This document shows positions 1-51,922 of a DNA stretch of 64,000 nt, piece by piece. The stretch lies in the NCBI RefSeq assembly GCF_030418305.1, contig NZ_JAUHPX010000001.1, positions 186,001-250,000 of the forward strand, written 5' to 3'. The notes beneath the pieces are model-generated. The model searched no databases and was not told where the DNA came from. It worked only from the letters and a program-made list of their open reading frames with translations. Both the position numbers and the translations under genes were made by a program. Every line of letters starts with the position of its first letter. Position 1 is the first letter of the stretch. The DNA is from Demequina lignilytica. GTDB taxonomy: Bacteria; Actinomycetota; Actinomycetes; Actinomycetales; Demequinaceae.

Positions 1-1625
1 CCGTCCACGACCTTCGCCCATCCGTCCTGGATGAGCGACTCCATCCCTCGCTCCGCGGCGTTGCGGGCGATATCCGCGGAGCTGGCACGCGCCACCGCGA
101 GACGTTCGATATCTTCGTCGATCGCCATGACCTCATGCAGCGCGACACGCCCGCGATAGCCCGTGTTCGAGCATCGCGAGCAGCCCTGCGGGCGCATCAG
201 CGTCGGCACCTTCTCCCCCGGCGTCCACCCCACCGACGCCGGGATTTCGTTCTCGTGGATCTCGTACTCGGTGGCGCAGTGCTCGCACAGACGGCGCGCG
301 AGTCGCTGGGCGACCACGCAGTCGATCGCGGAGCCCACCAGGAACGGCTCGATGCCCATCTCGATGAGTCGCGTCAGCGCCGAGGGCGCGTCGTTGGTGT
401 GCAGCGTCGACAGCACCAGGTGACCGGTGAGCGCCGCCTCGATCGCGATCTGTGCCGTCTCGTGGTCGCGGATCTCACCGACCAGCACCACGTCCGGGTC
501 GGAGCGCAAGATCGACCGCAGCGCCGACGCGAACGTCAGTCCCGCCTTGGGGTTGACCTGCACCTGGTTGATGCCCGGGATGCGGTACTCGACCGGGTCC
601 TCGACCGTGATGACGTTGACCTCGGGCCTCGAGATCTGGTTCAGCGTCGCGTACAGCGTGGTCGACTTTCCGGAACCCGTCGGGCCGGTCACCAGGATCA
701 TGCCGTAGGGCTTGTTGAAGCTCTGCGCGTAGATCTCCTGGTTGCCCTCGCGGATGCCCAGGTCCTCGAGGTCCAACCGCGCGGTGGAGTTGTCGAGGAT
801 ACGCATGACCACCTTCTCGCCCCACACCGTGGGGAGGGTGGCGACACGGAGATCGATCTTGCGGCCCTGATGGTTGACGGACAGGCGGCCGTCCTGCGGC
901 TTGCGGCGCTCCGCGATGTCGATGTCCGACATGATCTTGAGGCGGGAGATGACGCCGCCGGAGATCGCCTTGGGCGCCCGCTGCATCTCGTGCAGCACGC
1001 CGTCGATGCGGTAGCGCACGCGCAGGTCGGTCTCGGTGGGCTCGATATGGATGTCCGACGCCCGGTCCTGCACGGCCTGCGTGATGAGCAGGTTGACGAA
1101 GCGCACGATGGGCGCGTCGTCCTCCATCGCGGTCCCCGACAGGTCCTCCTCGTCGAGGTTGACCTCGCCCTCGATGGACTCCTGCAGGTCCTCGAGCTCG
1201 GTGTCCGCGCGGCAGTAGCGGTCGATCGCCGTGATGACGTCGTCGTGCGCCGCGACCACCGGCACCACCTGCATGCGTGTGATGGTGCGGACGTCGTCGA
1301 CCGCGACCACGTTGCCGGGGTTCGACATCGCGACGCGGATGACGGTCCCGTCGACGGCCAGCGGCAGGATGGTGTGGCGGCGGCACACGGCCGCGGGCAC
1401 CAGCGACACCGCCGCGCGGTCCACGGGGTAGTCGGCGAGCTCGACGAACTCCATGCCCACCTGGGACGCGAGGGCGCGCACGAGCTGCCCCTCGGAGATG
1501 TACCCCATCTCCACCAGGGTGCGACCCAGGGACTGCCCACGGGTCTGCTGCTCGTCGATCGCCTCGCCGAGCTGCTCCTCGCTGAGCGCGCCATCCTCGA
1601 GCAGGATGGTTCCAAGCTGCTTCAC
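1..1625 (-). CDS. pilB: GspE/PilB-family type II secretion/type IV pilus assembly ATPase (C-terminus cut by window edge)
   Basis: Cytoplasmic hexameric ATPase that powers pilin or pseudopilin assembly. 541 codons are visible and no stop is reached. The start is GTG at 1625, preceded by a GAGGGGA ribosome site; the first residues are VKQLGTILLEDGALSEEQL, a typical MshEN/T2SSE N-domain. Walker A GPTGSGKST is at about residues 314-322, followed by an Asp box, a Walker B region (DPDVVLVGEIRD) and a His box (LSTLHTNDA). Two CxxC pairs (CEHC and CSRC) downstream form the zinc site typical of PilB/GspE. Other pilus genes would lie beyond the left edge; aroE follows 69 bases upstream of the start. 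Family assignment is firm; pilus versus secretion role is inferred. Confidence 0.93.
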   Translation of the reverse strand, partial: MKQLGTILLEDGALSEEQLGEAIDEQQTRGQSLGRTLVEMGYISEGQLVRALASQVGMEFVELADYPVDRAAVSLVPAAVCRRHTILPLAVDGTVIRVAMSNPGNVVAVDDVRTITRMQVVPVVAAHDDVITAIDRYCRADTELEDLQESIEGEVNLDEEDLSGTAMEDDAPIVRFVNLLITQAVQDRASDIHIEPTETDLRVRYRIDGVLHEMQRAPKAISGGVISRLKIMSDIDIAERRKPQDGRLSVNHQGRKIDLRVATLPTVWGEKVVMRILDNSTARLDLEDLGIREGNQEIYAQSFNKPYGMILVTGPTGSGKSTTLYATLNQISRPEVNVITVEDPVEYRIPGINQVQVNPKAGLTFASALRSILRSDPDVVLVGEIRDHETAQIAIEAALTGHLVLSTLHTNDAPSALTRLIEMGIEPFLVGSAIDCVVAQRLARRLCEHCATEYEIHENEIPASVGWTPGEKVPTLMRPQGCSRCSNTGYRGRVALHEVMAIDEDIERLAVARASSADIARNAAERGMESLIQDGWAKVVD

Positions 1626-46182: not shown

Positions 46183-46255
46183 GCGGACGTGGCTCAGTTG
46201 GTAGAGCATCACCTTGCCAAGGTGAGGGTCGCGGGTTCGAGTCCCGTCGTCCGCT
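46183..46255 (+). tRNA. tRNA-Gly (anticodon GCC), copy 1
   Basis: Acceptor GCGGACG/CGTCCGC, discriminator T, no encoded CCA; anticodon arm CACC-TTGCCAA-GGTG gives GCC (reads GGC/GGU). Identical to the copy at 46671. Confidence 0.95.
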
Positions 46256-46288
46256 CGAAGGTTCGAGACCAACCTCGTGTTGGTACAC

Positions 46289-46359
46289 GGTGGGTTGGCC
46301 GAGAGGCGAGGCAGCGGCCTGCAAAGCCGTATACACGGGTTCGAATCCCGTACCCACCT
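46289..46359 (+). tRNA. tRNA-Cys (anticodon GCA)
   Basis: Acceptor GGTGGGT/ACCCACC, discriminator T, no CCA; anticodon arm CGGC-CTGCAAA-GCCG gives GCA. Present only in the first of the two tandem units. Confidence 0.94.
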
Positions 46360-46364
46360 CGCAT

Positions 46365-46439
46365 GGGCGATTGGCGCAGCGGTAGCGCGCTTCCCTGACA
46401 CGGAAGAGGTCACTGGTTCGATCCCAGTATCGCCCACCA
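46365..46439 (+). tRNA. tRNA-Val (anticodon GAC), copy 1
   Basis: Acceptor GGGCGAT/ATCGCCC, discriminator A, CCA encoded; anticodon arm CTTCC-CTGACAC-GGAAG gives GAC (reads GUC/GUU). Identical to the copy at 46781. Only 5 nt after tRNA-Cys. Confidence 0.95.
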
Positions 46440-46447
46440 CGCGAGAC

Positions 46448-46473
46448 AGGCCCCCGGAGAGATCCGGGGGCCT
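46448..46473 (+). terminator. Terminator after first tRNA cluster
   Basis: 11-bp stem AGGCCCCCGGA/TCCGGGGGCCT with a GAGA tetraloop, followed by TCTGCATT. A near-copy follows the second cluster. Confidence 0.88.
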
Positions 46474-46670
46474 TCTGCATTCCCCCGGTCGCACCCTTGG
46501 CCACCGAGCGATCCCGACCGGCTCCCCGCCGGGACACCGAGGTCCGGGAACCAGCGCCCGGCGCGCCCCGCGGGACCGCCGGTTCTGGTCGGGCCGCGGC
46601 GCGTCGCGGTCACCACGGACGCCCGGGATCCGGTAGAGTCTTGCCCGGCCCGAACACCGGTTCGGTCCAC

Positions 46671-46743
46671 GCGGACGTGGCTCAGTTGGTAGAGCATCAC
46701 CTTGCCAAGGTGAGGGTCGCGGGTTCGAGTCCCGTCGTCCGCT
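46671..46743 (+). tRNA. tRNA-Gly (anticodon GCC), copy 2
   Basis: Same sequence as 46183-46255, including the CGAAG bases that follow. A possible -10, TAGAGT (46634-46639), lies 31 nt upstream; no good -35. Confidence 0.95.
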
Positions 46744-46749
46744 CGAAGG

Positions 46750-46767
46750 ATCGCCCTCCGGGGCGAT
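46750..46767 (+). terminator. Intrinsic terminator between tRNA-Gly copy 2 and tRNA-Val copy 2
   Basis: 6-bp stem ATCGCC/GGCGAT, 6-nt loop, then TTCTT. Partial readthrough or a separate promoter would be needed for the following tRNA-Val. Confidence 0.6.
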
Positions 46768-46780
46768 TTCTTGTATACGA

Positions 46781-46855
46781 GGGCGATTGGCGCAGCGGTA
46801 GCGCGCTTCCCTGACACGGAAGAGGTCACTGGTTCGATCCCAGTATCGCCCACCA
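46781..46855 (+). tRNA. tRNA-Val (anticodon GAC), copy 2
   Basis: Same sequence as 46365-46439 with CCA encoded, followed by the same CGCGAGA context and terminator type. Confidence 0.95.
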
Positions 46856-47752: not shown

Positions 47753-49138
47753 ATGACCACCCGGCCGGATCTCGCCATGACCCTGGACGCCCAGCTCAGC
47801 GCCGGCCGTGCGCTGCGTCGATCGGTCGCCCGCCGCCAGCACGCGCTGCTGGAGATGCCCGACCGCGACCCCGTCGCGATCCTCGAGGCCCAGCACCGGG
47901 GGCGCGTCCCGGAGCTGGTGCCCGTGCGGGTCGCCCGGATGCTCGAGTCGCCGTTCGCCTTCTACCGCGGCAGCGCCGCCCACATGGCCCATGACCTGCG
48001 GGACGCCCCGCGCACGGGCATCGTGGTGGTCGCGTGCGGCGACGCCCACCTGGGCAACTTCGGCTTCTACGCCTCCCCCGAGCGCGAGCTGGTGTTCGAC
48101 CTCAACGACTTCGACGAGGCCAACGTGGGGCCGTGGGAGTGGGACCTCAAGCGGCTGGCGACGAGCGCCGTGCTCGCCGGGCGCGAGGTCGGGATCGACG
48201 AGCGGACCTGTCGAGAGGCCGCGACCGCGGCCGCCCACGCCTATCGCGACACCCTGAACCGCCTCTACGCGCACACCGCGCTCGAGCGCTTCTACTTCCG
48301 GGTCGAGGCGGACGCACTCCTCGACCGCATCGACGCGGGACCCGACCGGAAGGAGCTCCGGAGGGCGCAGCGCAAGGCCCGTCGACGCTCGTCCGAGCAG
48401 GTGCTGACCTCCGTCGCGACCGTCGGGAGCGGCCTCGACACGCGCATCGTCGATCAGCCGCCGGTCCTCCGCCACCTCGGGGTGGCCAGCCCCGAGCAGA
48501 TGACCGGCATCCTGCGGACCTACCGCGAGTCGGCCGCGTCCGACGTCGCGGTCCTGCTCGAGCAGTACACGCTCGTCGATGCTGCCTTCCGGGTGGTGGG
48601 CGTCGGCTCGGTCGGCCTGCGCGCGCACATCGCGCTGCTGATCGGCCCGTCGGGAGAGCCCCTCATGCTCCAGCCGAAGGAGGCCGTCCCCTCCGTGCTC
48701 GTCACGTACGGCGGCATGGCGTTCGGGGACACCCGTCGCCGCGCCGTGGCCCGGCCCTCGCGAGGGGTCGAGGGGTGGCGGGTGGTGACCGGTCAGCGCG
48801 TCATGCAGGCCGTGTCCGACCGGTTCCTCGGATGGCTCGAGTTCGAGGGCCGCGACTTCTACGTCCGCCAGTTCCGCGACATGAAGGGCGCCGTCGATCT
48901 GGACAGGCTCACGCCGTCGCTCCTGGTCGAGTACACGCGGCTCTGCGCCGCGGTCCTCGCCCGCGCGCACGCGCAGAGCCCGGACGGCGCACGGATCCTC
49001 GGCTACCTCGGCCGGAGCGACCGGTTCGACGATGCGGTCGCCCGGTGGGCACGTGACTACGCCGACCAGGCGGAACGGGACCACGCGGCGCTGGCGGCGG
49101 CGGTCCGGTCGGGCCGGCTGGCCGCCGTGGCCACGTGA
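47753..49138 (+). CDS. DUF2252 protein (kinase-like fold, function unknown)
   Basis: 461 residues with the whole DUF2252 pattern: RMLESPFAFYRGSAAHMAHDL, CGDAHLGNFGFYASPE, FDLNDFDEANVGPWEWDLKRLA, and late FYVRQFRDMKGAVDLD. The GDxHxxN and DxND pieces recall aminoglycoside-phosphotransferase catalytic loops, so a small-molecule kinase is plausible, but no substrate is known. Ends 16 nt from the PAS gene, tail-to-tail. Confidence 0.88.
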   Translation: MTTRPDLAMTLDAQLSAGRALRRSVARRQHALLEMPDRDPVAILEAQHRGRVPELVPVRVARMLESPFAFYRGSAAHMAHDLRDAPRTGIVVVACGDAHLGNFGFYASPERELVFDLNDFDEANVGPWEWDLKRLATSAVLAGREVGIDERTCREAATAAAHAYRDTLNRLYAHTALERFYFRVEADALLDRIDAGPDRKELRRAQRKARRRSSEQVLTSVATVGSGLDTRIVDQPPVLRHLGVASPEQMTGILRTYRESAASDVAVLLEQYTLVDAAFRVVGVGSVGLRAHIALLIGPSGEPLMLQPKEAVPSVLVTYGGMAFGDTRRRAVARPSRGVEGWRVVTGQRVMQAVSDRFLGWLEFEGRDFYVRQFRDMKGAVDLDRLTPSLLVEYTRLCAAVLARAHAQSPDGARILGYLGRSDRFDDAVARWARDYADQAERDHAALAAAVRSGRLAAVAT

Positions 49139-49154: not shown

Positions 49155-50510
49155 TCAGAGCGCCCGCACGCCCTCCCCGACCGCCGCCGCGTGCGCGAGC
49201 AGGCGGTCGGTGGGCGCCGGCACCGCCTGCTCCCGGCACGCGGCGGCCAAGGCGGTGAGGCCCTGCATCTGCCCGAGCACGCCGCGCAGCGCATCGTCCA
49301 CCGGGCCGAGCACGCCGGCGAGACGCCCCGAGACGCCGGAGCGGACCACCAGGTTGCGCCAGTTCGCCATCATGCGCTGGAACTCGAGCAGGCGGCCGTG
49401 CGCGGCGTCGATCGCGTCGGCGATGCGCCGCAGGCCCTCGGCGGAGCCGGTGCGCAGCTGATCGCTCGCCACCACGGAGTCGGCGACCGTCCGGGCAAGA
49501 TCGGCGATCGAGGTCACCGGATCGCCGTACGCCTCGCCGGAGAGCGCCTCGCCGGCGAAGATCAGCGCCATGTCGGTGTGGAGGACGGACAGCGCGAGCG
49601 AGGCGCGCAGGTCAAGGAGCAGCGCGCGCTGGTCGTCGAGCGCCGCACCCAGAGGGGTCAGGTCCTCGCCGACGCCGCGGGCCAGCGTCGCGACGGCCCG
49701 TGCGGTCGAGACCAGGACCGGCGCGGCGTCGGCGACGCTCGCCGCCGCCTCCGCAGCCGCGTCCGTCGAGCCCTGGAGCAGCGCGAGCGTCCGTTGCAGG
49801 TCGTCGCGCGCCGCCGTCAGCTCGGAGGCGAGCCCGACCGTCACGTCGTACCGGCCGCGCAGCGCCTCGAGCTCGTGGTCGACGCCCACCAGCCCGCTCA
49901 CCACGGAGGACCACGGGGTGCCCGGCTCGGTCGTGGGCGCCGCGGGCGGCGCGACCGCACGTCGCGCGTCCACCTCGGCGGGGAGCGCGGCGCGCAGGAC
50001 GTCGTCGTAGGAGTCGAACCCGAGCGCACGCAGCCGCGCGGCGAGGTCCGCCGCACCACGCGCGGCCGCGTCCGCCCGCGACGCGCCCTCGGCGCGCCAG
50101 CGCGCCTCGAGCTCTCGCGTCTCCCGGTACGCCGCGTCGACCGGCTCGAACAGATCGGGGCGCATCACCGCGGATCGCACCGAGATGAAACCGTCGCGGA
50201 GCGGCGTCACCGTCGAGAAGGTGAGGTACTCGGCGCCGTCGCGCGCGAGGTTCCGCACGTAGGCGACCATCGGGCGCCCCGCGAGGATCCGCTCCCACAT
50301 GATGTGGAACGCGGCGCCCGGCATCGAGGGGTGTCTGATGATGTTGTGCGGCGCGCCCAGGAGCTCGCCCTCCCCGAAGCGCGACAGCCTCACGAAGGTC
50401 GAGTTGACGCTGGTGATGACGCCCCGTCGGTCGGTCGTGGAGAAGAACACCTGGCCCGCGGGGTACGCGCGCACCTCACCGGTCGGCTCGGCTCCCACGG
50501 GTCGTGCCAT
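49155..50510 (-). CDS. Cytoplasmic Aer-type PAS protein with chemoreceptor-like helical tail
   Basis: 451 residues. An N-terminal PAS domain (about 20-125) has the Aer/aerotaxis pattern: FFSTTDRRGVITSVNSTFVR, then GAPHNIIRHPSMPGAAFHIMW. This is followed by an alanine-rich helical region (about 200-440) with no membrane helix and no canonical chemoreceptor hairpin tip; LALSVLHTDMALIFAGEAL occupies a comparable place. ATG 50510 with GAGGAGGAG. May be a soluble redox or oxygen sensor linked to chemotaxis or to another output. No che genes are in the window. Confidence 0.8.
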   Translation of the reverse strand: MARPVGAEPTGEVRAYPAGQVFFSTTDRRGVITSVNSTFVRLSRFGEGELLGAPHNIIRHPSMPGAAFHIMWERILAGRPMVAYVRNLARDGAEYLTFSTVTPLRDGFISVRSAVMRPDLFEPVDAAYRETRELEARWRAEGASRADAAARGAADLAARLRALGFDSYDDVLRAALPAEVDARRAVAPPAAPTTEPGTPWSSVVSGLVGVDHELEALRGRYDVTVGLASELTAARDDLQRTLALLQGSTDAAAEAAASVADAAPVLVSTARAVATLARGVGEDLTPLGAALDDQRALLLDLRASLALSVLHTDMALIFAGEALSGEAYGDPVTSIADLARTVADSVVASDQLRTGSAEGLRRIADAIDAAHGRLLEFQRMMANWRNLVVRSGVSGRLAGVLGPVDDALRGVLGQMQGLTALAAACREQAVPAPTDRLLAHAAAVGEGVRAL

Positions 50511-50583: not shown

Positions 50584-50615
50584 CGAGCGCCCGGGGCACG
50601 TGCCCCGGGCGCTCG
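50584..50615. terminator. 32-nt perfect palindrome downstream of fucO
   Basis: CGAGCGCCCGGGGCAC and its exact reverse complement form a 32-nt palindrome 14 nt past the fucO stop. It can form a 14-bp or longer hairpin and probably terminates the fucO transcript, insulating the PAS gene. Confidence 0.85.
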
Positions 50616-50628
50616 GCGCGGCCGCGGA

Positions 50629-51795
50629 TCAGCCGACCGTCACCCCCAGCAGCGAGCGGTACAGGGTCTCGAACTGCGCGACGGTGGTCTCGCGGGGGTT
50701 GCCGCCCGCGCACACGTCGTCGAAGGCGGCCTGCGCGAGCGCGGGGACGTCGTCCGCGCTCGCGCCGATCTCGTCGATCGTGAGCGGGTTGCCCAGGTCG
50801 CGGGTGAGCTGCGCCACGGCGTCGACGGCGGCCTCGCGCGCGTCGTCCAGCGGCATCGCGTACGCGTTCTCGACACCGAAGGCGGCGGCGATGTCGCGGT
50901 ACTTCTCCCCCGTCTCGGGCGCGTTGAAGCGCATGACGGGCGCGAGCAGGATGCCGTTGGCGACGCCGTGCGGAGCCGAGTAGAACGCGCCGAGCGGGTG
51001 CGCCATCGCGTGCACGATGCCGAGGCCCACGTTCGAGTAGCCCATGCCCGCGACGTACTGGGCGAGCGCCATCCGCTCCATCGCCTCCGCGTCGCCGTCG
51101 GCGGCCGCACGCAGCGACGATGCGATCACCTGGATGGCCTTGAGGTGGAACAGGTCGGACAGCTCCCAGGCGCCCTTGGTGGTGTAGCCCTCGATCGCGT
51201 GCGTGAGGGCGTCGAGCCCGGTCGCGACCTTGAGCGACCGCGGCGCGGTGGCCATCATCTCGGCGTCGACCACCGCGAGGATCGGGATGTCGTGCGGGTC
51301 GACGCACACGAACTTGCGGTTGTTCTCCACATCGGTGATGACGTAGTTGATCGTGGTCTCGGACGCGGTGCCGGCCGTGGTCGGGATCGCGATGATCGGG
51401 ATCGACGGGTGCGTCGTGGGCGCGACGCCCTCGAGCGAGCGCACGTCCGCGAACTCCGGGTTGGCCACGATGATGCCGATCGCCTTGCACGTGTCCTGCG
51501 GCGAGCCGCCGCCCACCGCGATCAGCACGTCGGCGCCCGAGGCCTGGAACGCGGCGACACCGGCCTGCACGTTCTCGATGGGCGGGTTCGGGAGCACGTT
51601 GTCGTACACCTCGTACGGGAAGCCGGCCGCGTCGAGCAGCGCGGTGACCTTGCCCGTCACGCCGGTCTCGATGAGCACCTTGTCCGAGACCAGGAACGCC
51701 TTGGTGAAGCCTCGCGCGGCCAGCTCGCCCGGGACCACCTCGATGGCGCCGGCGCCGAAGTACGCGGTCTGGTTCCAGATCATCCGATGTGCCAC
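50629..51795 (-). CDS. fucO: Lactaldehyde reductase-like iron-dependent alcohol dehydrogenase (FucO type)
   Basis: 388 residues from GTG 51795 (VAHRMIWNQTAYFG), with GGAGAGG upstream. Aligned by eye with E. coli FucO over its whole length: GGGSPQDTCKAIGII, NPEFADVRSLEG, IPTTAGTASETTINYVITD, KFVCVDPHDIP. Iron ligands are in ATGLDALTHAIEGY (Asp, His) and MAHPLGAFYSAPHGVANG (two His). It reduces lactaldehyde to 1,2-propanediol in fucose/rhamnose catabolism, but no deoxy-sugar genes are nearby. A LacI-type operator lies 62 nt upstream. Confidence 0.9.
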   Translation of the reverse strand: MAHRMIWNQTAYFGAGAIEVVPGELAARGFTKAFLVSDKVLIETGVTGKVTALLDAAGFPYEVYDNVLPNPPIENVQAGVAAFQASGADVLIAVGGGSPQDTCKAIGIIVANPEFADVRSLEGVAPTTHPSIPIIAIPTTAGTASETTINYVITDVENNRKFVCVDPHDIPILAVVDAEMMATAPRSLKVATGLDALTHAIEGYTTKGAWELSDLFHLKAIQVIASSLRAAADGDAEAMERMALAQYVAGMGYSNVGLGIVHAMAHPLGAFYSAPHGVANGILLAPVMRFNAPETGEKYRDIAAAFGVENAYAMPLDDAREAAVDAVAQLTRDLGNPLTIDEIGASADDVPALAQAAFDDVCAGGNPRETTVAQFETLYRSLLGVTVG

Positions 51796-51857
51796 AGTGC
51801 ACCTCTCCTTCCGGGGCCCGCAGGCCCGCACGGTACGAGGGCGGTCGCCCCCTTGCA

Positions 51858-51869
51858 TGAATCGTTTCA
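51858..51869. promoter_or_regulatory. LacI-family operator upstream of fucO
   Basis: On the minus strand TTGAAACGATTCATG, a near-palindrome centred on CG (TGAA..CG..TTCA), matches the usual LacI/GalR/CcpA-like pattern and lies 62-74 nt upstream of GTG 51795. No LacI gene is in the window. Confidence 0.6.
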
Positions 51870-51922
51870 AGCGAGGGGGCGCGAGACGTGGGACGGAGGT
51901 CCCAGCGGACGATGCGGGCGCG

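Follow-up and report, generated by a model that had tools for sequence, protein, structure and literature searches.

In Escherichia coli Aer, residues H53, R57, M69, W70, N85, and R115 lie near FAD in the crystal structure (PMC9668731). Aer D60 is needed for FAD binding, and the S28G substitution restores FAD binding by the PAS domain in HAMP mutants that otherwise lose FAD (PMC2628428). A different kind of signalling is found in the conservons, G-protein systems through which the passage of signals is reported to be poorly understood (PMC13343842). The conservon accessory proteins named in that source are GAF and P450 proteins; CvnE and CvnF go with CvnA proteins devoid of a sensory domain, and CvnA8 is both bound and activated by CvnF8 (PMC13343842). 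In Myxococcus and Bdellovibrio, type IV pili are under the influence of Ras-like GTPases (PMC13343842, PMC4316618). MfpA is encoded right after a conservon and binds the GTP form of its GTPase (PMC4316618). An arrangement of a conservon, a PAS sensor, and pilus genes was not reported in the titles, abstracts, and passages of the open-access literature searched.

Here I describe a PAS protein of Demequina lignilytica whose relatives touch on both kinds of system. Its gene lies in the window, by which I mean the whole stretch of 64,000 nucleotides that was analysed (Table 1). I tentatively read the protein as a cytoplasmic redox sensor working outside chemotaxis with an output by contact, which in one clade most likely has a conservon as its partner and the pilus as its output; the sequence data bring this reading close to an even chance, though somewhat below it. 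The N-terminal Aer-type PAS domain would bind FAD and report on the cell's redox or oxygen status. The helices behind it would relay the change to a dedicated four-helix bundle, and the bundle would presumably act on a partner by contact.

Table 1. Positions of the features discussed (window positions unless a locus is named)
Feature	Position	Strand	Basis or remark
Whole gene, soluble Aer-type PAS + predicted four-helix-bundle protein, 451 aa, ATG start	49155..50510	(-)	Intact ORF
Aer-type PAS domain, about residues 21-120	50151..50450	(-)	phmmer to 8dik/31cj, conserved residues
Post-PAS helical segment, about residues 118-184, conserved LPAEV at its end	49959..50159	(-)	AF2 and HMM match
C-terminal putative output domain, residues 199-451, predicted four-helix bundle	49158..49916	(-)	AF2, conserved residues
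Fe-ADH gene (iron-containing alcohol dehydrogenase), upstream neighbour of the PAS gene	50629..51870	(-)	Same strand as the PAS gene
DUF2252 protein gene, convergent neighbour of the PAS gene	47753..49138	(+)	
Perfect 30-bp GC-rich palindrome between the Fe-ADH and PAS genes	50585..50614	(.)	
Five-tRNA cluster: Gly(GCC) x2, Val(GAC) x2, Cys(GCA) x1	46183-46855		
MshEN/pilB match, the sole one in the genome	about 6-1616	(-)	~48 kb from the PAS gene
Tandem PAS-bundle genes	L086 5330-10824 and L087 1558-7306		G064 and G187
Second PAS-bundle paralog between the rpoC and rpsL genes	L093 3180-4739		G151

The gene and its PAS domain

The ribosome-binding-like sequence GGAGGAGA stands just 5′ of the ATG codon. 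Terminator and promoter scans found nothing at the window locus; the palindrome, which is not followed by a T-run, may be the end of the ADH transcript. Nothing found at this locus links the PAS gene to the Fe-ADH gene, and none of the neighbours of the PAS gene is a signalling gene. A gene for an alpha-amylase-domain protein (neighbour cluster C1) is present at all seven Demequina loci compared. It is taken as genus synteny.

The preliminary description had called the product a soluble Aer-type PAS protein, and this was borne out. With phmmer, its PAS domain matches the structures of the E. coli Aer PAS domain (8dik at E 3.8e-17, 31cj at E 4e-15), and PHNxxRHP, part of the aerotaxis signature that had been noticed, is common to the window protein and Aer. 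A Pfam search with a cut of E<=10 returned three PAS families along with two weak, unrelated matches; neither HAMP nor MCPsignal was among them, the HMMER filters removing most rows above 0.1. There is no 19-residue hydropathy window of 1.6 or more; the highest value is 1.45 at residues 305-323, which fall within a predicted helix. Thus HAMP and membrane segments, which are usual though not universal in MCPs, were not found in this protein.

In the phmmer alignment, Aer H53, R57, M69, W70, and N85 correspond to H55, R59, M71, W72, and N87 of the window protein; R112 was equated with R115 by eye across a shorter loop. H55, R59, W72, N87, and R112 are all present in the window protein and are all kept in 55 of the 62 distinct sequences of the family. 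Glycine occupies the position of Aer S28 (G30 here) in 60 of the 62. Since S28G rescues Aer HAMP mutants and the family protein has no HAMP, G30 was counted in favour of a PAS domain that holds FAD. The equivalent of Aer D60 is Ser62, which counts against an FAD-type pocket. Elsewhere in the family, the H58/D60 positions are occupied by N and L in the operon copies of G067 and G098 (family group g24), and one or more of the five pocket residues have been lost from the copies next to pilB in G138 and G238. From the conserved pocket residues I infer that the window PAS domain binds FAD, and a redox signal from it is inferred likewise.

AF2 places helices at residues 118-140, 145-162, 168-175, and 178-184 with low to medium confidence. 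Four PAS-only proteins of relatives (L019-L022) match the family profile through position 166-181 of 188, and the match of the Aer-type MCPs L032 and L033 reaches only to position 131-133. The genes at L019, L020, and L021, all from chemotactic relatives, encode Aer-like proteins, and each stands immediately before an MCP gene whose signalling tip is intact; as far as sequence and gene order tell, the two genes form a split arrangement like that of CetB and CetA. At L022, a search for the signalling tip by exact pattern gave no match.

Proteins with both the PAS domain and the tail make up a family of 62 distinct sequences (four incomplete), which come from 46 genomes and 12 family groups. Members from six further species of the genus are 50-56% identical to the window protein over the whole length, and those from other genera, or paralogs, 26-36%. 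Such whole-length conservation is more than chance. Among 99 genomes, 24 match, the genome of the window included: 16 with a full-length member, two with an incomplete one, and six with a PAS-only or weak match. The incomplete members are those of G019, at a contig end, and G027, in several frames. G027 (L010/L030) belongs to the genus of the window, and its gene is either frame-shifted or subject to an assembly error. The family is carried by nine of 44 genomes of the genus. In a sample of the phylum, ten of 396 genomes match at E<=1e-6, including the window's own genome and one weak partial match. A1 contains neither the incomplete G019 and G027 sequences nor four PAS-only proteins, the PAS/MCP protein of G094, the weak G083 match, and matches without a locus. 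A FastTree tree of the family has an uncertain root and was not used as evidence.

The C-terminal tail and chemotaxis

The tail carries conserved motifs, namely P264, LR..iAL..LH..M...FA.E (301-321), and F...L..WR (377-385). Counted over the 62 sequences, L310 is kept in 56, F318 in 54, A306 in 52, W384 in 50, E321 in 47, H311 in 43, and P264 in 40. In the full-protein AF2 model, the PAS part is poor (block means of 24-37 to residue 110). The model of the tail alone (pLDDT 84, pTM 0.74) has long helices in a compact four-helix bundle; both models were built on two sequences. Structure prediction of the C-terminal half had been proposed in the preliminary description, and its outcome is thus a predicted bundle, not a hairpin. 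Foldseek found no PDB match to the tail model at E<=0.001. With VIA-align, it matched 8d9o (Z 17.1, 2.1 A over 192 residues) and the periplasmic part of PilJ (Z 13.7, 5.4 A over 190 residues). These are designed or generic bundles, and they name no family. No MCP signalling domain is among the best 50 VIA-align matches listed, an absence that proves nothing.

Could the tail be derived from the hairpin of an MCP, in a degenerate or divergent chemoreceptor that still joins arrays where its hosts have them? Aligned by hhalign with the MCPs of relatives, it gave weak values of 15% (21 members) and 38% (pooled set), above those of the reversed profile (2.2%) and of six column shuffles (0-0.1%). However, the registers differ between the runs, and five rotations reached 6-36%, as long helices may give. 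The family profile matches the sequence of the MCP 2ch7 in the PDB at E 1.6e-5, but tropomyosins and designed bundles were matched too. P264 (40 of 62) sits at a helix break, and the compact bundle model also speaks against a hairpin. MCPsignal (PF00015) was detected in none of 21 tails at E<=0.1. A family search of the tails at a wider cut-off has no MCP domain among the matches listed (25 of 28 families). I regard such a chemoreceptor as improbable, though the tail may descend remotely from a receptor. A hairpin with its tip near residues 325-330, as read from the first AF2 model and the first hhalign run, was dropped when the register shifted with more sequences and the tail-only model and its structural matches gave a compact bundle.

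A standard MCP signalling domain in residues 200-440, which would have refuted the preliminary description, was looked for, and none was found in the window protein or, at E<=0.1, in the 21 tails. By its sequence, the family falls outside the methyl-accepting chemotaxis proteins. Pooled over all loci with repeats counted, 109 of 120 ORFs that bear the tail also carry the PAS domain. The other 11 comprise four cut by the end of the stretch, five frame-shifted ones (G164, G027), and two partial matches. Since the two parts are joined in every uncut and unshifted ORF, the two partial matches apart, the tail is a dedicated partner of the PAS domain. Hence, of the two possibilities that had been named for the tail, the new output module gained support from the conservation of the tail as a unit joined to this PAS domain, and the degenerate receptor lost ground to the weak, unstable hhalign result and the compact bundle.

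The absence of che genes, at first stated for the vicinity, extends to the whole genome (2.90 Mb, 98.8% complete) as far as it was searched: CheW, MCPsignal, and flagellin gave no match, with positive controls. Thus the partner MCP gene that a CetB-like role calls for was sought there without a match to MCPsignal. Among the 18 of the 99 genomes with a member, CheW is present in seven (G003, G007, G013, G055, G060, G077, and G092), and no CheW, MCP, or flagellin was found in the other 11. The search was widened to 297 genomes of the order with the tail-only profile A2, which matched 60 of them at E<=0.001 and 39 at E<=1e-10. The weaker matches include helical stretches beside true MCPsignal domains (G003, G077, G092). 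For the Fisher tests, the 39 genomes were taken as carriers; sub-threshold or marginal matches were left out (G296 for PilB, G214 for CheW). CheW occurs in nine of 39 carriers and 53 of 258 non-carriers (p 0.68), so the family's occurrence does not track that of CheW. The nine are what an array-joining receptor has in its favour here, and the 30 carriers without CheW stand against it.

Gene neighbourhoods in relatives

I found that the PAS gene is part of a recurring operon in one clade. In G067, G098, and G316, the gene order is HATPase-Robl-DUF742-GTPase-PAS-PilB-PilT-PilC. These labels come partly from Pfam and otherwise from my own profiles, seeded partly with some of these genes; PilT stands here for a T2SSE protein that has no MshEN. 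In two of these genomes, G067 and G098, the GTPase gene upstream and pilB downstream each overlap with the PAS gene. Altogether, 15 family genes, from 14 of the 39 carriers, lie next to pilB, with 201-303 bases from the tail match to the MshEN match. A conservon-type Ras-like GTPase is encoded directly upstream of the PAS gene in 11 of 13 pilB-linked genomes examined, the fourteenth (G216) being left out. The 11 are ten genomes of g24 and G316, thus two family groups; G067, G098, and G316 supplied the seeds of the GTPase profile, and the other eight did not. For G190 and G151, the sequence compared stops in or before the kinase gene. In G138 and G238, the search turned up no GTPase gene next to the pilB-linked copy, and Pfam gave no match for the kinase-like neighbour of the G138 copy.

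The CvnA kinases of G067, G098, and G316 have a HATPase match and one strong N-terminal hydrophobic segment; a second, weaker segment in two of the three falls inside the HATPase domain. Neither NIT nor HAMP was found in them at E<=1. A cvnABCD set with such a NIT-less CvnA thus accompanies the PAS gene in these three genomes, and it is not found beside the window copy. In the genome of the window, the conservon is on contig 12 and the PAS gene on contig 1, and in the unlinked kinase, two hydrophobic segments accompany NIT, HAMP, and HATPase matches. The NIT-less CvnA of the operon clade follows the pattern reported for conservons with CvnE or CvnF as stand-alone sensors.

Thus, in the operon clade, the partner would be the conservon upstream (a histidine-kinase-like CvnA, the roadblock protein CvnB, the DUF742 protein CvnC, and the Ras-like GTPase CvnD), and the output would be the type IV pilus machinery PilB, PilT, and PilC, encoded directly downstream. 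The PAS-bundle protein would then have a role resembling that of the accessory sensors CvnF and CvnE. By the precedent of MfpA, an effector role is as possible for it as an input role. In the window organism, where the PAS gene is unlinked and pilB and one conservon are present, the same pathway may run in trans. A broader version, in which Actinomycetota possess a second, chemotaxis-free energy-taxis pathway from a flavin PAS through a conservon Ras-like GTPase to type IV pili, with stand-alone copies elsewhere acting on conservons or other partners in trans, seems rather unlikely.

The bundle might instead bind PilB or PilT and regulate the pilus motor directly, the conservon being a mere neighbour. 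The 14 carriers in which pilB is adjoined would fit this, among them G138 and G238, with no GTPase gene detected alongside. However, the gene stands directly behind a GTPase gene in 11 genomes, and 16 of the 39 carriers have no pilB. I consider such a motor regulator very improbable.

How far does the link of the family to conservons and pili reach? PilB is present in 23 of 39 carriers against 88 of 258 other genomes (p 0.004), a comparison that ignores kinship and is dominated by family group f20. Fifteen of the carriers have neither PilB nor CheW. G078, G083, and G095 are without both pilB and DUF742, and in G064, without pilB, the DUF742 match is sub-threshold. Since there are carriers without pilB, some also without DUF742, the link is not universal. 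In the family group of the window, PilB occurs in 47 of 47 genomes searched and DUF742 in 46 of 47, so that co-occurrence is uninformative there.

These carriers without pilB favour a redox sensor that stands alone and has its partner outside both conservon and pilus. The operon clade would then have recruited it locally, and in Demequina and elsewhere the protein would regulate something else in trans, for example a kinase or a transcription factor. Some f3 genomes have several copies, which also suits this explanation. In two of them, G064 and G187, two tandem copies have a response regulator/histidine kinase pair and topoisomerase I as neighbours; Pfam was run on the G064 neighbour genes, and the G187 genes are their cluster mates. 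The two-component pair is a possible other partner and the sole recurring signalling neighbour seen outside the pilus clade. However, in the loci examined, no other candidate partner gene is shared by more than one family group; the exception is protein kinase genes that are near, and not adjacent to, the copies of G055 and G187. A sensor of this kind is possible, if on the doubtful side.

The other neighbours scanned are mostly housekeeping-type genes. Clusters common to the G055, G095, and G187 loci were considered as respiratory genes, and their content proved to be otherwise: a SpoU methylase, cysteinyl-tRNA synthetase, protein kinases, ABC proteins, a tRNA methyltransferase, and GNAT. G098, G151, and G190 each have a second paralog some 13 kb away from the operon copy. 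It was rejected as pilus-linked because of its site in G151 (Table 1); its spacing from the operon copy in G098 and G190 is similar to that in G151.

Comparison with Aer, CetB, and the conservon accessory proteins

Returning to the reading of a cytoplasmic redox sensor outside chemotaxis, an aerotaxis-type sensor would, if it is true, have been reused without CheA and CheW. A redox PAS accessory gene between the GTPase gene and the pilus motor genes would offer a testable input and output. The operon context is a hint that oxygen or energy may be sensed by a pathway outside chemotaxis.

The window protein shares with E. coli Aer (8dik, 31cj) a PAS domain with the same flavin-contact residues and PHNxxRHP. 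In contrast to Aer, no HAMP, membrane anchor, or MCP domain was found in it, the loop before R112 is shorter, and the tail is unrelated by profile search. CetB of the bipartite CetA/CetB energy-taxis system of Campylobacter jejuni is likewise a cytoplasmic Aer-like PAS protein without a membrane part of its own, and the actinobacterial PAS-only proteins L019-L021, encoded beside MCP genes, share the PAS domain and the post-PAS helices with the family. However, CetB has no further domain and works with an MCP partner, whereas the window protein has a predicted 250-aa bundle in a genome without an MCP match. With CvnF and CvnE, the operon clade has in common a stand-alone sensor-type gene attached to a conservon with a NIT-less CvnA. 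In contrast, the conservon accessory proteins are of the GAF (CvnF) and cytochrome P450 (CvnE) types, while here a PAS domain is joined to a predicted four-helix bundle; the operon clade is linked to pilus genes, and the window copy is unlinked.
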